Assembly: GCA_009917695.1 (NCBI GenBank)
Contig: JAACJG010000006.1
Location: 124,001-188,000, forward strand
Direction: 5' to 3'
Source of the DNA: Candidatus Rifleibacterium amylolyticum
Lineage (GTDB): Bacteria; Muiribacteriota; Ozemobacteria; Ozemobacterales; Ozemobacteraceae
Length of the DNA stretch: 64,000 nt
Positions within the stretch are counted from its first letter, which is position 1. Every line of letters starts with the position of its first letter. The translations under genes were made by a program, and so were the position numbers. A model generated the notes under the pieces. That model was not told the DNA's origin. It saw nothing but the letters and a program-made list of their open reading frames with translations, and ran no database searches. Positions 10,990 to 53,833 of the stretch are shown piece by piece.

Positions 10990-11334
10990 ATGGAAGTTAA
11001 AATAGATGTCAGAGCCAAAGGCAGCGATGTGACACTCATAGTCATTCGCGGCGAGATCGGCACCGAAACCGTCGATCAGTTCAAAGAAAAAATCGATCAG
11101 GTAATCAACGACGGCAAGAAAAAGCTCGTCATCGACCTTCAGGAAGCAAACTACCTCAACAGCATGGGTCTAGGCGTTTTCGCTTCAGCCCTCAAAAAAC
11201 TGAAGAAGAGCAATGGCGACCTCAAGCTCATCAATCTGTCGCCCACCGTCATGGAACTGCTCGAGCGCTCACGCCTCGACAAGGTTTTCGACGTATTCGA
11301 AACCGAAGAAGAAGCAGTAAAAAGCTTCGGTTGA
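10990..11334 (+). CDS. STAS-domain anti-sigma factor antagonist
   Basis: The 114-residue protein is a single STAS domain (SpoIIAA/RsbV type). The core 'LVIDLQEANYLNSMGLGVF' carries Ser58 in the 'NSMGLG' turn, the place of the serine phosphorylated by RsbW/SpoIIAB kinases. In that family the unphosphorylated antagonist binds the anti-sigma kinase and frees a sigma factor or other partner. GGGAGG lies before the ATG. The stop overlaps the TTG start of aroE. Possible partners in this window are the receiver/RsbW-like protein at 36229-37140 and the SpoIIE-type phosphatase at 49996-51180, but that pairing is inference. Confidence 0.92.
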   Translation: MEVKIDVRAKGSDVTLIVIRGEIGTETVDQFKEKIDQVINDGKKKLVIDLQEANYLNSMGLGVFASALKKLKKSNGDLKLINLSPTVMELLERSRLDKVFDVFETEEEAVKSFG

Positions 11335-45623: not shown

Positions 45624-45728
45624 TTATAGTAGGGATTTACAGGACAATGGCGAGATCCAGGCTTTCCGCATTCAAGCCACAATAGACAGATCAGACATCG
45701 CCTCATGCACATTGAAGAGGGTACACTT

Positions 45729-48700
45729 ATGACAAAGGTTCTTCTGACAGGCCAAGCCAATGCCAGTCAGGCAGATCTGGCCGAGAAACTGGCAGCAAAG
45801 TTGCCAGACGCCCGGTTTCTTAATGCAGAACCCGAGAATGACTGGCTTGACAGGATCAAAAAAGAAATTCCCGACCTGATAATTTTTGCCGCAGATGTTC
45901 CATACACCACAGTCAAAGAATTCTGCCAAAAACTTCTCGCCGACTCCAGAACCAGCAACATACCTACAATCGTTATCTCTGATAAGCCAGACGCTCAACT
46001 AAGCAACGAAAAGCAAAACTTGAGCAATATGATTATATTGCCAGCCAATGTAGACATCAGCCTTCTCGCACTCCAGATAGAGCTTTTACTACGGGCCTGC
46101 AAAGCAGAAAAGAACCTGCGTCTCGAAAAAGAACAGCTGAATGAGCTGGTAAAGAAAAGAACCAGGGCGCTGCAACAAAGCGAAAGAAAGTGGCGCAACA
46201 TTCTCGTCAACACCCCGCAGATTGGCATCAGCCTCGACACCAGAGGCAGAATTACCTTCGCCAACAAGCATTTTCTCAACCTGACCGGCTGGTCGCGCGA
46301 AGAGGTCATCGGCAAAGACTGGATAGAAAACTTCATACCCGAAGAGATACGCGACGAGATTCGCCAGGTGTTTCTTTCGAGCATGAAAAAAGAGAACGCT
46401 TTCGGGCATTCGACCCATGAGAATGAGATTATCACACGCGACGGCAAACGTCTCATTATCAGCTGGTCAAATGTGATTACCAAGTCGCTGAATGGCGATA
46501 TCAGTGATGTAACCTGTCTTGGTGTCGACATTACCGAACGCCGAAGAGCGGAACTGCGTCTGCAGGCCAGCAAAAATCTGCTCGAAACCGCCGGGCGCGT
46601 CGCTCATTTTGGCGGCTGGAGCGTAGATGTCGCAACTGCAAAAGCCACCTGGTCGGATGAGGTTGCAGCGATTCATGATATGCCGGCCGGGTATTCTCCT
46701 GATGTCAGTGAAGGCATAAGCTTTTATGCGCCTGAATGGCGCGATAAAATCAGAAAAGTTTTTGAAGACTGTGCTGTCAAAGGCGTTCCCTATGATGAAG
46801 AAATGGAAGTCATCACCGGCCAGGGCAGGAGGCTCTGGGTGCGAACAACCGGGCAGGCGGTTCGCGACGAATACGGCAATATAGTCAAGGTTGAAGGCTC
46901 TTTTCAGGATATCAGCGAACGCAAACAGATAGAAAACGAGTTGCGCCGAAGCGAAGAGAAATATCGCATTCTCGTCGAAAACCAGACAGATCTGGTAGTT
47001 AAAGTTGATACCGAAGGCCGCTTTTTGTTCGTAAGCCCATCTTATTGCCGCTTATTCGGAAAAACTGAAGGTGAACTGCTTGGCCAGCAGTTCATGCCGC
47101 TGGTTCACGAAGATGACCAGGCAAAAACAACAGAGGCGATGAAACCGCTCGCGATACCGCCACACACCGCCTATATGGAACAACGGGCAATGACGTCAAA
47201 AGGCTGGGTATGGCTTGCCTGGCTTGATACAGCGATACTTGACGAAAATGGGCAGGTCAAAGAAATTATTGGCGTCGGCCGCGACATTACCAAGCGCAAA
47301 CTCGCAGAAGAGGCTTTAAAAACCAGTGAAGAACAGGTTCGTTTTCAGGAGGAGCTTCTGCGCAATGCCCCCATGCTGGCGCTTTTTCACGATAATGAGT
47401 TCAAGGTGATATGGCATAACAAGGCATTCGCAGATGCCACAGGCAAAGCGGCGCATGAGATTATCGGTAAAAAATGTCATGCCGCCTGGGGATTGCCAAA
47501 GCCATGTGTCGGCTGCCCCGGAATAGAGACAATGAAAACTGGAGCCAAAAATCAGGGCGAAATTGTTACCGGCAGCGACCAGGAGAACGAAGACAACCTG
47601 CGGCACTGGGACATTCGCTCTACACCGGTGCGAGATTCAGATGGAAATATTATCGGCGCCATAGAAATCGGGCTCGATATAAGCGAGAGAGTCAAGCTCA
47701 CCAGGCAGTTTTTGCAGGTACAAAAGCTCGAATCAGTCGGCCGACTGGCCGGAGGTGTAGCGCACGATTACAACAATATGCTCGGAGTCATTCTGGGTTA
47801 CGCCGAAATGGCGATAGAAAAATTGCCTGACAGCAAAACCGTTCATTCATGTCTTGGAGAAATACTCAGCGCGGCGAACCGTTCGAAAGACATAACCAGG
47901 CAACTCCTGGCTTTCGCCAGCAAACAGACGATTTCGCCACAAATTCTCGACCTGAATGCAACGGTCGAGGGCATGCTGAAAATGCTCAGGCGTCTTATCG
48001 GCGAAAACATAGATCTCGTCTGGAAACCAGGAAAAGGCAAATGTATCGTAAAGATGGACCCATCGCAGATCGACCAGATTCTGGCAAATCTTTGCGTCAA
48101 TGCGCGCGATGCCATAAGTGGTGTCGGTGAAATCGTCATTCAAGCCGATATTGTAGTCATAGAACCGGCAACCTGCTTTCTGAAGCCAAATTTTGTTCAG
48201 GGTGAATTCATCAAACTTTCAGTAAAAGACAATGGCTGCGGCATAGATAAAAAAACGATGACTCAGCTGTTCGAGCCATTTTTTACGACCAAAGCCCCGG
48301 GCAAAGGAACCGGACTCGGTCTGCCGACCGTTTATGGCATAGTCAACCAAAATCACGGTTTCATAGATATCACGAGCTCTCCGGGTAAAGGCGCGATTTT
48401 TGACATCTATCTACCCTGCTGTAAAGAAGCCGGCGATGTACAGGCAAAAACAGCGCCACAAAAGGTTCCACACGGCAAAGGCGAGACTATATTGATAGTA
48501 GAAGACGAACCCGCCCTGCTTGCAATAACCAGGATCAAACTTGAACAGCTTGGCTACAAAGTTTTAACAGCTTCGAACCCGGAAAAGTCAATTCAGCTTG
48601 CAAAAGATAATGCCACCCAGATCGATCTCTTGCTTACCGACGTTATCATGCCCAGAATGAGTGGTCGCGACCTTTCTCAAAAGCTGCAGGAAATCATACC

Positions 48701-48848
48701 GAATCTGAAAACCCTTTTCATGTCAGGTTACGATGCCGAGATCATCACCCGCCAGGGCATACTCGAAAAGGGAACCAACTTCCTTCACAAACCCTTTACC
48801 ATGACAGAACTCGCCAAAAGGGTTCATAGTATCATTCACGATCTGTAA
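45729..48848 (+). CDS. multi-PAS hybrid histidine kinase
   Basis: The 1039-residue cytoplasmic protein starts with a receiver-like domain (about 1-120) lacking the phospho-Asp ('LIIFAADVP', Ala at the usual position). A coiled coil and four PAS/PAC domains follow (about 145-270, 275-395, 400-525, 530-655). The fourth has a Cys cluster 'CHAAWGLPKPCVGCPG' like PAS domains that may bind metal or sense redox. HisKA has His in '[15 protein letters not shown]' near 679. HATPase has '[10 protein letters not shown]', 'KDNGCGI' and '[11 protein letters not shown]'. The C-terminal receiver is intact ('LIVEDEPALL', 'LLLTDVIMPRMSG', 'FLHKPF'). The ATG at 45729 with GAGG upstream is preferred. It is followed after 54 bases by the B12-binding gene. 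Confidence 0.92.
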   Translation: MTKVLLTGQANASQADLAEKLAAKLPDARFLNAEPENDWLDRIKKEIPDLIIFAADVPYTTVKEFCQKLLADSRTSNIPTIVISDKPDAQLSNEKQNLSNMIILPANVDISLLALQIELLLRACKAEKNLRLEKEQLNELVKKRTRALQQSERKWRNILVNTPQIGISLDTRGRITFANKHFLNLTGWSREEVIGKDWIENFIPEEIRDEIRQVFLSSMKKENAFGHSTHENEIITRDGKRLIISWSNVITKSLNGDISDVTCLGVDITERRRAELRLQASKNLLETAGRVAHFGGWSVDVATAKATWSDEVAAIHDMPAGYSPDVSEGISFYAPEWRDKIRKVFEDCAVKGVPYDEEMEVITGQGRRLWVRTTGQAVRDEYGNIVKVEGSFQDISERKQIENELRRSEEKYRILVENQTDLVVKVDTEGRFLFVSPSYCRLFGKTEGELLGQQFMPLVHEDDQAKTTEAMKPLAIPPHTAYMEQRAMTSKGWVWLAWLDTAILDENGQVKEIIGVGRDITKRKLAEEALKTSEEQVRFQEELLRNAPMLALFHDNEFKVIWHNKAFADATGKAAHEIIGKKCHAAWGLPKPCVGCPGIETMKTGAKNQGEIVTGSDQENEDNLRHWDIRSTPVRDSDGNIIGAIEIGLDISERVKLTRQFLQVQKLESVGRLAGGVAHDYNNMLGVILGYAEMAIEKLPDSKTVHSCLGEILSAANRSKDITRQLLAFASKQTISPQILDLNATVEGMLKMLRRLIGENIDLVWKPGKGKCIVKMDPSQIDQILANLCVNARDAISGVGEIVIQADIVVIEPATCFLKPNFVQGEFIKLSVKDNGCGIDKKTMTQLFEPFFTTKAPGKGTGLGLPTVYGIVNQNHGFIDITSSPGKGAIFDIYLPCCKEAGDVQAKTAPQKVPHGKGETILIVEDEPALLAITRIKLEQLGYKVLTASNPEKSIQLAKDNATQIDLLLTDVIMPRMSGRDLSQKLQEIIPNLKTLFMSGYDAEIITRQGILEKGTNFLHKPFTMTELAKRVHSIIHDL

Positions 48849-48902: not shown

Positions 48903-50003
48903 ATGAATATGCAAAAACTATTAGAATCTCTGACTGGTTTGCCTCAGGTCTCGCGACGGTCGGCAGAAGCCTACAATTCCAGAAAAGGCCTGCTCGCCGA
49001 AAGCGTCAACCTGGCGATGGCCGCACGCCAAGATCTGGCCAGGCTTATCGGCAGCAAGACCAATATCGAACTGATGCAGAATAATCATCAGAATCACGTT
49101 CAGTTCATTACCACGGTTCTCCATCTCAATGCCTTTCGGTTGCTGGCTTCAGTGATTCCCTGGATTTATCTGACCTACCATCAGCACGGATTTTCTTTCG
49201 AGTATTTTCCCGTCGCCCTCGCGGCCTGGAAACAGGCTGTCATAAATGAGATCCCAAAGGAACTCGCTCAAGAAATCGTGCCGGTTTATGACTGGATGTT
49301 GAGTCAACACGACACAGCCGTAAGTGAGTTGAGCAATCTTCCAGTCACCAACGATGCAGAGCTGCCTGAGTCTGCAGCGACATTTCTCAACAGCATTCTT
49401 GAAAAAGATTTGCCAGGCGCTGTCAACCTCGCACTACAGAGCACCAGATCGGAAGATGGCCTGAGAAGATTTTACAACACAACCATGCAGCCGGCCATGT
49501 ATGAGGTTGGCGCCCGCTGGTCACGCGGTGAAATTTCGGTTGCCGACGAGCATATGGCTACTGCCGTCGCCCAGTCCGTCGTTGCCAATCTGCAGGCAAA
49601 AACAGCTGCAACAGCCGGCAAGCGTGGCAAAGCGATCATAACTGCGGCAACGAATGAACAGCACGATCTCGGTGCCCGCATGGCAGCACATGTTTTTGAG
49701 ACAGATGGCTGGGAAGTAATTTATCTCGGTGCCAACATGCCCATATCTGACCTGACTCATCTGGCGCGACGGGTAAAACCGAGATTCATCGGCATCTCAG
49801 TTGCCATGCCATATAATCTGCATCATGTAAAACGTATAGAAGAAGCGTTCAAGAATGACGTTGAGCTGAAGCAGATCAAGATCATTGTCAGTGGTATAGT
49901 ATTCAGGCTGTTTCCCGAAGCAGCGACATGTCTCGATGGCATTAACGTCATCACGAACCTCGACGAGGCAATCACCATGACCAGGAGATGGGCAGTTGGT
50001 TGA
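48903..50003 (+). CDS. stand-alone B12-binding protein with CarH-type light-sensor motif
   Basis: The 366-residue protein has an N-terminal helical domain of unknown role (about 1-145), a B12-binding-2 four-helix domain (about 150-235) and a cobalamin-binding Rossmann domain (about 238-365). 'EQHDLG' (Glu252, His254) fits the (E/D)xHxxG lower-ligand motif. 'WSRGEISVADEH' (Trp206 to Glu216-His217) is an exact Wx9EH, the motif that in CarH/LitR photoreceptors caps adenosylcobalamin and makes them light-sensitive. The MerR DNA-binding domain of CarH is absent, so output must be through protein contacts. The next gene, a SpoIIE-type phosphatase, overlaps its stop and is the obvious partner. In-frame starts at 48888 (GTG) and 48909 are alternatives; none has a good ribosome site. 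Confidence 0.88.
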   Translation: MNMQKLLESLTGLPQVSRRSAEAYNSRKGLLAESVNLAMAARQDLARLIGSKTNIELMQNNHQNHVQFITTVLHLNAFRLLASVIPWIYLTYHQHGFSFEYFPVALAAWKQAVINEIPKELAQEIVPVYDWMLSQHDTAVSELSNLPVTNDAELPESAATFLNSILEKDLPGAVNLALQSTRSEDGLRRFYNTTMQPAMYEVGARWSRGEISVADEHMATAVAQSVVANLQAKTAATAGKRGKAIITAATNEQHDLGARMAAHVFETDGWEVIYLGANMPISDLTHLARRVKPRFIGISVAMPYNLHHVKRIEEAFKNDVELKQIKIIVSGIVFRLFPEAATCLDGINVITNLDEAITMTRRWAVG

Positions 50004-51180
50004 AGCAGATAATTTCATCAGCTCGCTGCCAGAAGGCCTGCAGAAAACGCTTAAGCTCTCTGAAAGAGTGTTCTGCCTGGGAGTCTCGAAAAGCGGCGTT
50101 ATTGAAGCGTGCAGCGAAAGTCTGCGCAAAATTCTTGCCGTTCCCGAAATGCCGGTCGGTAATCTGGTGGAAGAAATATTTCTACCGGCAGCAACCGGCG
50201 CAAGCAGACTGACCATTGCCGATATTGCCGCCGCCGGCGAAACTGGCTCTCTGCTGGCACGGCTCGCCATGAGCAATCGCCCCTGCCGCCTGATCGTTTT
50301 CCGACAAGGCGAAGGATATACCTGCTGGGGTGAAGTCATTGGCGACAAAAGTACGACCGGCCTCAGTGAAGTCAGTGGCATGGCCGGTCAGATTCAGGAA
50401 CTGTTGAAGCAGATAAAAAAGCAGCATGATGAGCTGCAGCAGGGTTTAAAAACTGCGGCCTGGCTGCAACATCGATTTCTGCCAACTGCCAGAAAGTATG
50501 GCGACGTAAGCGCAGCCTGGCATTTCAGGCCCTGCGAAAAAATCGGCGGCGACTACTTCAATATTTTCATCAAAAGAGGTGGCAGTCTGGCGGCCTACCT
50601 GCTCGATGTCTCAGGGCACGGCATGGCCTCGGCAATGCTGGGAATCGCAGCTACTCAATATATCAGGCAGACCATCGATGGTTTTGAAAACGACGACCTG
50701 AAGGCTTCTATCATGCCTCAGCTGCTGGCAAAACTCGAACAGGAGTTTCCGCTCGAACGGTTCAATCTGTATTTCAGCATGATCTACCTCGAAATAGACC
50801 ATGAGTGTCGCCAGATGAGATGGATAAATGCCGGGCACCCAGATCCGATACTGTTGCGCAATGGTGAGGCGCCGATTCTGCTCAAAGGTGGCGGGCCTTT
50901 TGTCGGCCTAGATCAGGCGGAACTGGTAGACGAGCAGCAGATAGAGCTTAAACCAGGAGATAGAATATATCTCTATTCAGACGGAATTACCGAACGCCGC
51001 AGTCAGGACGGCGGCTTCTTCGGCGAAAAGCTGCTAATGGAATCACTGGCCCGCGAAAATCAGCAACCTCTGCAAAAACAGACCAACGCCGTCATTGCCG
51101 ACAACGACACTTATGGCGCTCCCCTGCCCCCCCAGGACGACATCACTCTGGTCGGCCTCGAAACAGGAGCTGATTCTTAA
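49996..51180 (+). CDS. SpoIIE/RsbU-type PP2C serine phosphatase
   Basis: The 394-residue protein has an N-terminal PAS-like segment (about 1-125), a short coiled coil and a complete SpoIIE phosphatase domain (about 170-390): 'GGDYFNIF' with metal Asp, 'LLDVSGHGMASAML', 'INAGHPDPILL', 'RIYLYSDGITE' and 'PQDDITLVGL'. Family members dephosphorylate STAS antagonists and so release sigma factors or other partners. The TTG start at 49996 overlaps the B12 protein stop, with AGGAG 8 bases upstream, so translation is coupled. This suggests light or B12 status controls the phosphatase. The STAS protein at 10990 and the RsbW-like receiver protein at 36229 are candidate pathway members, by inference. Confidence 0.92.
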   Translation: MVEADNFISSLPEGLQKTLKLSERVFCLGVSKSGVIEACSESLRKILAVPEMPVGNLVEEIFLPAATGASRLTIADIAAAGETGSLLARLAMSNRPCRLIVFRQGEGYTCWGEVIGDKSTTGLSEVSGMAGQIQELLKQIKKQHDELQQGLKTAAWLQHRFLPTARKYGDVSAAWHFRPCEKIGGDYFNIFIKRGGSLAAYLLDVSGHGMASAMLGIAATQYIRQTIDGFENDDLKASIMPQLLAKLEQEFPLERFNLYFSMIYLEIDHECRQMRWINAGHPDPILLRNGEAPILLKGGGPFVGLDQAELVDEQQIELKPGDRIYLYSDGITERRSQDGGFFGEKLLMESLARENQQPLQKQTNAVIADNDTYGAPLPPQDDITLVGLETGADS

Positions 51181-53150: not shown

Positions 53151-53447
53151 TCAGGAAGTTGCATCAATGGAGATCTTAAGGCCTATCGAACTCAGTATTG
53201 CCCAAAGACTGGTGAATTCCGGATTGCCCTTTTCAGAAAGCATTTTGTATAGGTTTTCACGGTTTAAATGCGCTTTTTTGGCAATTTTAGTTACGCCCCA
53301 GGCCTTAACAACATTTTTAAGCGCCAAAAGAAAGAGCTCGTTATCACCTTCTTCAAGAGCGGCGTTGAGATAAGCAGCCGCTTCTTTTGAGTCTTTTAGC
53401 GTTTCAAGAAGACTTTTCTGATGATCGTTTGTCAGTTTACCTGTCAT
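53151..53447 (-). CDS. HTH antitoxin of a type II toxin-antitoxin pair
   Basis: The 98-residue protein has a helix-turn-helix in its C-terminal half ('AWGVTKIAKKAHLNRENLYKML', shortened to key part 'VTKIAKKAHLNRENLYKML', with 'GNPEFTSLWAILSSIGL' after it), typical of HigA-like antitoxins paired with RelE/ParE-type toxins. The antitoxin neutralises its toxin and represses its own operon. Its ATG overlaps the toxin stop by 4 bases (ATGA), so the toxin comes first and the antitoxin second, as in higBA-type loci. The next gene downstream is tsaC. Confidence 0.9.
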   Translation of the reverse strand: MTGKLTNDHQKSLLETLKDSKEAAAYLNAALEEGDNELFLLALKNVVKAWGVTKIAKKAHLNRENLYKMLSEKGNPEFTSLWAILSSIGLKISIDATS

Positions 53448-53770
53448 AGCGAAGATCTCCTTTTAAAATCAGCCCAGTACTGTTTCGCAATAACAATGTC
53501 ATTCTGCTGGGTGTTTTTATCACCACCACAAAGCAATAAAATTACATACTTGCCGGACTGGCCGTAATATACTCGATAACCCGGTCCATAATCGATCTTC
53601 AGTTCAGCTACGCCTTCTCCAACAGGCCTGCAACTGCTGAAATTGCCCAGCGAAAGCCGGTCAATCTTTACATTGATTTTTGCCCTGGTCTTAGTATCTT
53701 TTAGCCCGTTCACCCATTTTTCAAATGGATCTAATCCGTTTTCCAGAAGGTAATGCTGAACTTTATACAT
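53444..53770 (-). CDS. RelE/ParE-family (HigB-like) toxin
   Basis: The 108-residue protein fits the addiction-module killer family: 'GLDPFEKWVNGLKDTKTRAKI', here about residues 11-31, then 'KIDRLSLGNFSSCRPVGEGVAELKI' in part, 'GPGYRVYYG' and 'YVILLLCGGDKNTQQNDI'. Members usually cleave mRNA at the ribosome. The Met at 53770 ('MYKVQHY') gives the usual family length, while an in-frame start at 53803 would add 11 unusual residues. It is the first gene of the pair with the HTH antitoxin. All core motifs are present, so it should be active. Confidence 0.9.
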   Translation of the reverse strand: MYKVQHYLLENGLDPFEKWVNGLKDTKTRAKINVKIDRLSLGNFSSCRPVGEGVAELKIDYGPGYRVYYGQSGKYVILLLCGGDKNTQQNDIVIAKQYWADFKRRSSL

Positions 53771-53833
53771 ATTCTTTTCATTATTGTAGCTTAAAACAAA
53801 CAAAAATACAAGCGATTTAGATAACAGGCAAGC

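Follow-up and report, generated by a model that had tools for sequence, protein, structure and literature searches.

A photocobilin-type B12 sensor gene overlapping a PAS-coil-SpoIIE phosphatase gene in a Riflebacteria genome of probable deep-aquifer origin

Photocobilins such as SasPcob and AbDPcob combine an adenosylcobalamin (AdoCbl)-binding domain (CBD) carrying W, EH and ExH motifs with a phycobiliprotein-like globin and regulate an output enzyme, either in cis or in trans (PMC10979010). In SasPcob and AbDPcob the globin is C-terminal, and members with a C-terminal AdoCbl domain have also been described (PMC10979010). AdoCbl binding alone reduces the activity of a photocobilin-linked enzyme, a diguanylate cyclase, in the dark, and stand-alone photocobilins alter diguanylate cyclase activity in trans (PMC10979010). 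In BBAG-2 proteins or photoglobins and in the pre-2 three-gene clusters, a globin and a B12 protein are fused or encoded by neighbouring genes, with a bilin reductase in the cluster and a heme oxygenase in the genome (PMC10151467). For B12 photoreceptors, a light signature consisting of GxxW, EH, GxxH and GxxxP has been published (PMC11796333).

Here, we analysed a stretch of 64,000 nucleotides from Candidatus Rifleibacterium amylolyticum (contig JAACJG010000006.1, positions 124,001 to 188,000; below, the window). It encodes a photocobilin-type sensor directly followed by a SpoIIE phosphatase (Table 1). Compared with SasPcob and AbDPcob, the globin of the window sensor is N-terminal and its output is a separate PAS-coil-SpoIIE protein. 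Compared with the BBAG-2 and pre-2 systems, globin and B12 domain occur with a signalling enzyme, and a search of the genome for canonical heme oxygenase gave no hit.

Table 1. Coordinates of the sensor-phosphatase pair and its features within the window
Feature	Position	Strand	Basis or remark
Photocobilin-type sensor gene, 366 aa	48903..50003	+	ATG start; alternative start GTG 48888; AF2 pLDDT 89.8
Photoglobin-type (phycobiliprotein-fold) domain, aa ~17-145, all helical	48951..49337	+	profile, hhalign, family alignment
Asn61 codon, bilin-binding Asp position (CxRD Asp; SasPcob Asp270)	49083..49085	+	alignments; PMC10979010; SasPcob register partly extrapolated
Trp87 codon, family-invariant; SasPcob Trp296 by alignment offset	49161..49163	+	alignments; PMC10979010
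B12-binding_2 four-helix bundle over B12 site, aa ~157-237	49371..49613	+	Pfam and AF2 model
Wx9EH adenosyl pocket, W206 S207 ... E216 H217	49518..49553	+	sequence, alignments
Rossmann B12-binding domain, aa 241-366	49623..50000	+	Pfam and AF2 model
E252-x-H254-x-x-G257, predicted lower axial cobalt ligand	49656..49673	+	sequence, family alignment
8-nt overlap TTGGTTGA, phosphatase start / sensor stop	49996..50003	+	same arrangement in L034, L035
PAS - coiled coil - SpoIIE (PP2C/RsbU-type) phosphatase gene, 394 aa	49996..51180	+	TTG start; PF07228 E 4.9e-39
PAS-like domain and signalling coiled coil	50032..50475	+	hhalign to HK, GGDEF and Cys-motif partners of relatives; model secondary structure
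PP2C metal-binding Asp codons D186, D204, D329, D381/D382	50551..51141	+	all conserved in relatives

A Pfam domain scan placed PF02607 at residues 167-230 and PF02310 at residues 243-341 of the sensor and detected no MerR DNA-binding domain. The Wx9EH and ExHxxG motifs named in a preliminary description of this DNA can be read directly in the open reading frame and are invariant in an alignment of 12 full-length family proteins. Homologs of the sensor occur in Riflebacteria, Deltaproteobacteria, Chitinivibrionales, Fusobacteriota and Azospirillum; a genome scan with a single protein sequence as query gave no hits. The best PDB sequence matches of the CBD were CtMerR, CarH and SasPcob, while CarH and CtMerR were the best fold matches of the AF2 model. 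The Pfam scan and the sequence comparisons thus bear out the proposal that the B12 domain is of CarH type and that the protein lacks a MerR domain. The sensor shares the AdoCbl domain, Wx9EH, ExH and GxxxP (GANMP, G276 to P280) with the CarH/LitR proteins TtCarH and CtMerR, but differs from them by the missing MerR domain, by an additional globin, by Ser207 at the position matching CarH His132 and by NxxH (NEQH) in place of GxxH. It therefore carries three of the four light-signature elements.

The Pfam domains are identical to those of corrinoid proteins from methyltransferase systems, and the HGW-Riflebacteria-1 relative (L034) carries a corrinoid/UroD-type pair downstream (L034:7817-9507). 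The sensor might accordingly be an ordinary corrinoid protein of that kind, adjoining the phosphatase by chance. However, a CBD tree places the B12 domain of the sensor together with TtCarH, CtMerR and SasPcob and splits this group from MetH and methyltransferase corrinoid domains with support of 99/98, although the three PDB rows lie on long branches, which leaves their exact placement unsure. Further, among the CBD open reading frames read in the loci compared, all 13 photocobilin-type sequences carry Wx9EH whereas the seven methyltransferase-type sequences lack it, and the partner gene in the window is a signalling gene, not a methyltransferase. Based on the tree split and the motif distribution, methyltransferase corrinoid identity was rejected, and we consider chance adjacency of such a protein extremely improbable.

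The B12 protein had been called stand-alone, but the roughly 140 residues that precede its CBD are a domain of their own, descended from phycobiliproteins/photoglobins. A profile of this domain from nine members matched allophycocyanin beta at 1.5e-6 and, weakly, the SasPcob globin. In the Azospirillum homolog (L088), which aligns with the window sensor in register over the whole chain and shares the invariant W87, the domain at the same position matches PF00502 at 3.7e-9. Using hhalign, the window group was connected to the Azospirillum/f5 group (E 8.8e-4, 108 columns) and to Streptomyces photoglobin domains (E 1.8e-3), and the latter two to each other (E 1.6e-7). A profile restricted to the SpoIIE-linked members and close kin found no phycobiliprotein among PDB sequences, so the globin assignment, for which statistical support is moderate, runs via intermediate, more distant relatives. 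Among the matches listed in a fold search with the whole sensor, CarH domains dominate. The presence of a divergent phycobiliprotein-type globin makes the sensor a photocobilin with an N-terminal globin. In two loci the sensor is split, with CBD, histidine kinase and stand-alone globin as separate genes (L027:8074-10424 and L028:8541-10738).

The ability to bind biliverdin has probably been lost in this globin. In contrast to bilin-binding photocobilins, the window sensor has Asn at the bilin Asp position, and it lacks the Cys of CxRD. AbDPcob, an accepted photocobilin, likewise lacks this Asp, so its loss bears on bilin use and not on photocobilin membership. The sensor might be a dual-colour photocobilin, with B12 as one chromophore and a bilin in the N-terminal globin as the other; in favour of this are the globin itself and its invariant Trp, whose SasPcob counterpart Trp296 forms the contact between chromophore and corrin (PMC10979010). 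Asn61 and the missing Cys speak against it, as does the search for canonical heme oxygenase (PF01126, a family that does not span every heme-degrading enzyme), which found none in the genome itself or in ten genomes with related sensors. We therefore regard dual-colour sensing as very unlikely. The kinase-linked photocobilins L010, L011 and L012 of Riflebacteria family f5 keep C-x-R/Q-D, typical of covalent bilin attachment; despite this motif, PF01126 was not found in their genomes.

In the model of the phosphatase, a PAS-like fold is followed by a long helix and a PP2C domain; the best PDB matches are RssB, SiaA and RsbU-type proteins. Fold and metal-binding Asp residues are shared with these phosphatases, whereas the PAS/coil front is the protein's own and is common to kinases and cyclases that are paired with B12 sensors. 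The reported overlap of the TTG start with the sensor stop proved to be correct. HGW-Riflebacteria-1 and an Ozemobacteraceae MAG (L035), which are the two closest relatives, have an identical 8-nt TTG/TGA overlap, so it is not due to chance. In comparison with HGW-Riflebacteria-1, dN/dS is about 0.14 for the sensor and 0.16 for the phosphatase gene, with dS near saturation; purifying selection acts on both. With the metal-binding Asp residues intact and both genes under selection, the proposed coupling of a CarH-type B12 gene to a SpoIIE phosphatase stands. An RNA family scan gave no match around the operon; the one cobalamin riboswitch of the genome (G000:C7:224638-224774) lies away from it.

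In nearly all loci read, a signalling gene lies 3' of the sensor gene on the same strand, in most cases overlapping it or separated from it by a few bases. The partner is a SpoIIE phosphatase in L034, L035 and L037, a histidine kinase in L027-L029 and L031-L033, a GGDEF protein in L036 and L087 (Ilyobacter polytropus), and a PAS-Cys protein in L026, L038 and L039. One sensor front end is therefore matched to several kinds of output within the family. Skermanella (L089) is the exception to this gene order, and in Azospirillum an annotated hypothetical gene lies between sensor and kinase. The PAS-Cys partners (L026:5551-6237, L038:9106-9723, L039:1717-2397) end in a short Cys-motif tail after PAS and coil and have no recognised enzyme domain. 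By hhalign (97.8%, E 9.5e-13, Ilyobacter partner left out), PAS and coil of the SpoIIE partners are homologous to the PAS and coil found in kinase, GGDEF and Cys-motif partners, and the PAS/coil may thus be the common receiver of the sensor signal.

Sensor and phosphatase could also be co-expressed with no action on each other, the sensor signalling elsewhere, for example to a large PAS-repeat hybrid histidine kinase (45705-48848), whose same-strand gene is the next one upstream and leaves a gap of 54 nt to the sensor gene. The HGW relative likewise has upstream signalling genes, and the genome contains 46 SpoIIE domains over the cut-off. The upstream gene, however, varies between relatives, the hybrid kinase not being conserved, while the downstream partner with the common PAS/coil is retained, making this arrangement improbable. 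In the HGW relative, an additional HAMP-SpoIIE gene is found closely upstream of the sensor (L034:3935-5080).

We propose, with a probability of about one in two, that the pair is a two-protein module in which a photocobilin-type sensor gates the PAS-coil-SpoIIE phosphatase by contact, responding to AdoCbl status rather than light. The proposal builds on what the genes and genome contain: domains, motifs, overlap, conserved pairing, common PAS/coil, an intact phosphatase site, a corrinoid adenosyltransferase (CobA/BtuR) and no canonical heme oxygenase that the search could find. The sensor would consist of the N-terminal globin of phycobiliprotein descent followed by the CarH-type AdoCbl domain, in which His254 would hold the cobalt from below and Trp206, Glu216 and His217 the adenosyl group from above. 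The phosphatase would be produced by coupled translation from the same mRNA. Binding of AdoCbl, or loss of the adenosyl group, is predicted to alter the shape or dimer of the sensor, and the altered sensor may then directly contact the PAS/coil of the phosphatase. This contact would set phosphatase activity on a phosphorylated STAS-type antagonist and thereby act on a partner switch. AdoCbl binding, protein contact, direction of control, the STAS target and a non-light input are what we infer for this module.

Light had been suggested as the input, and the most serious alternative is that green light photolyses AdoCbl, shifting sensor conformation and toggling the phosphatase on or off. The adenosyl pocket and three of the four signature elements (PMC11796333) are intact, sequence and fold are near those of proven photoreceptors, and photoactivity has been seen in the Wx9EH proteins tested to date (PMC11796333, PMC10979010), which counts against a non-light input. 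Both SasPcob and AbDPcob are regulated by light although they lack His132 (PMC10979010). In addition, the genome, of probable deep-aquifer origin, encodes a full-length DNA photolyase (L098:592-2013), so the lineage may still meet light. On the other hand, the assembly of 5,391,313 bases in 35 contigs corresponds to Riflebacteria MAG Ch46 (35 contigs, 5.39 Mb) from borehole 5P, which taps a 2.8-km-deep Siberian aquifer (PMC7509429), and the bacterium, here taken to be Ch46, probably stems from this dark habitat. The name of the nearest relative begins with HGW, as do those of groundwater genomes obtained at Horonobe from 140-250 m depth (PMC5520028), and a further relative is found in Ilyobacter from marine mud. 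Together with the lack of PF01126 hits, Asn61 at the bilin position, Ser207 at the His132 position and NxxH for GxxH, this makes light gating doubtful, though it ranks next after AdoCbl status. The latter is the more likely physiological input; we prefer it because AdoCbl binding has an effect in the dark and photocobilins act in trans (PMC10979010).

The STAS gene at 10990-11334 had been named as the phosphatase target. That gene sits next to aroE at a distance of 38 kb, and the genome has 13 STAS hits over the cut-off, of which it is one; the link was rejected, since neither position nor uniqueness supports it. No cognate STAS antagonist or anti-sigma kinase adjoins the pair among the open reading frames read on both sides. 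An adjoining STAS or anti-sigma kinase gene is not required of SpoIIE/RsbU partner-switch phosphatases. Elsewhere in the genome, approximately ten large SpoIIE-domain open reading frames (~960-1030 aa) stand in a row at roughly 3-kb spacing (G000:C7:10528-48266).

A light-to-partner-switch route, which the preliminary description had considered possibly new, has a precedent: photocobilins are known, and a link of a photocobilin to SpoIIE and STAS was predicted in a Saccharothrix network (PMC10979010). Streptomyces plasmids carry SpoIIE - photocobilin - STAS clusters (L090, L093, L095), which share with the window a photocobilin adjoining a SpoIIE phosphatase but differ in having the phosphatase upstream and with another front (a weak GAF in one), a C-terminal globin and an adjacent STAS gene. 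A branch with an N-terminal globin and interchangeable PAS-coil outputs is new as far as the papers cited here show, as are its presence in bacteria from dark environments and the apparent loss of its bilin function.

More tentatively than for the pair itself, we suggest that the CarH-type pocket of the clade senses AdoCbl independently of light, was retained in bacteria living in permanent darkness and acts as an interchangeable front end for PAS-coil outputs. If true, the published light signature would mark AdoCbl binding and not light sensing, which is of consequence as sequence signatures are now used for naming B12 photoreceptors. That deep-subsurface and anaerobic bacteria with no recognised bilin source carry most of the signature makes the distinction between light and B12 cofactor sensing testable. 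A practical test system for the sensor family is the named Fusobacteriota strain Ilyobacter polytropus DSM 2926, whose plasmid pILYOP01 encodes a full-length sensor homolog overlapping the GGDEF gene (L087:4965-7008).

Downstream of the pair in the window, two small overlapping genes (53151-53803) that by eye resemble a HigB/HigA-type toxin-antitoxin system lie between Sua5-like and PrmC-like genes.
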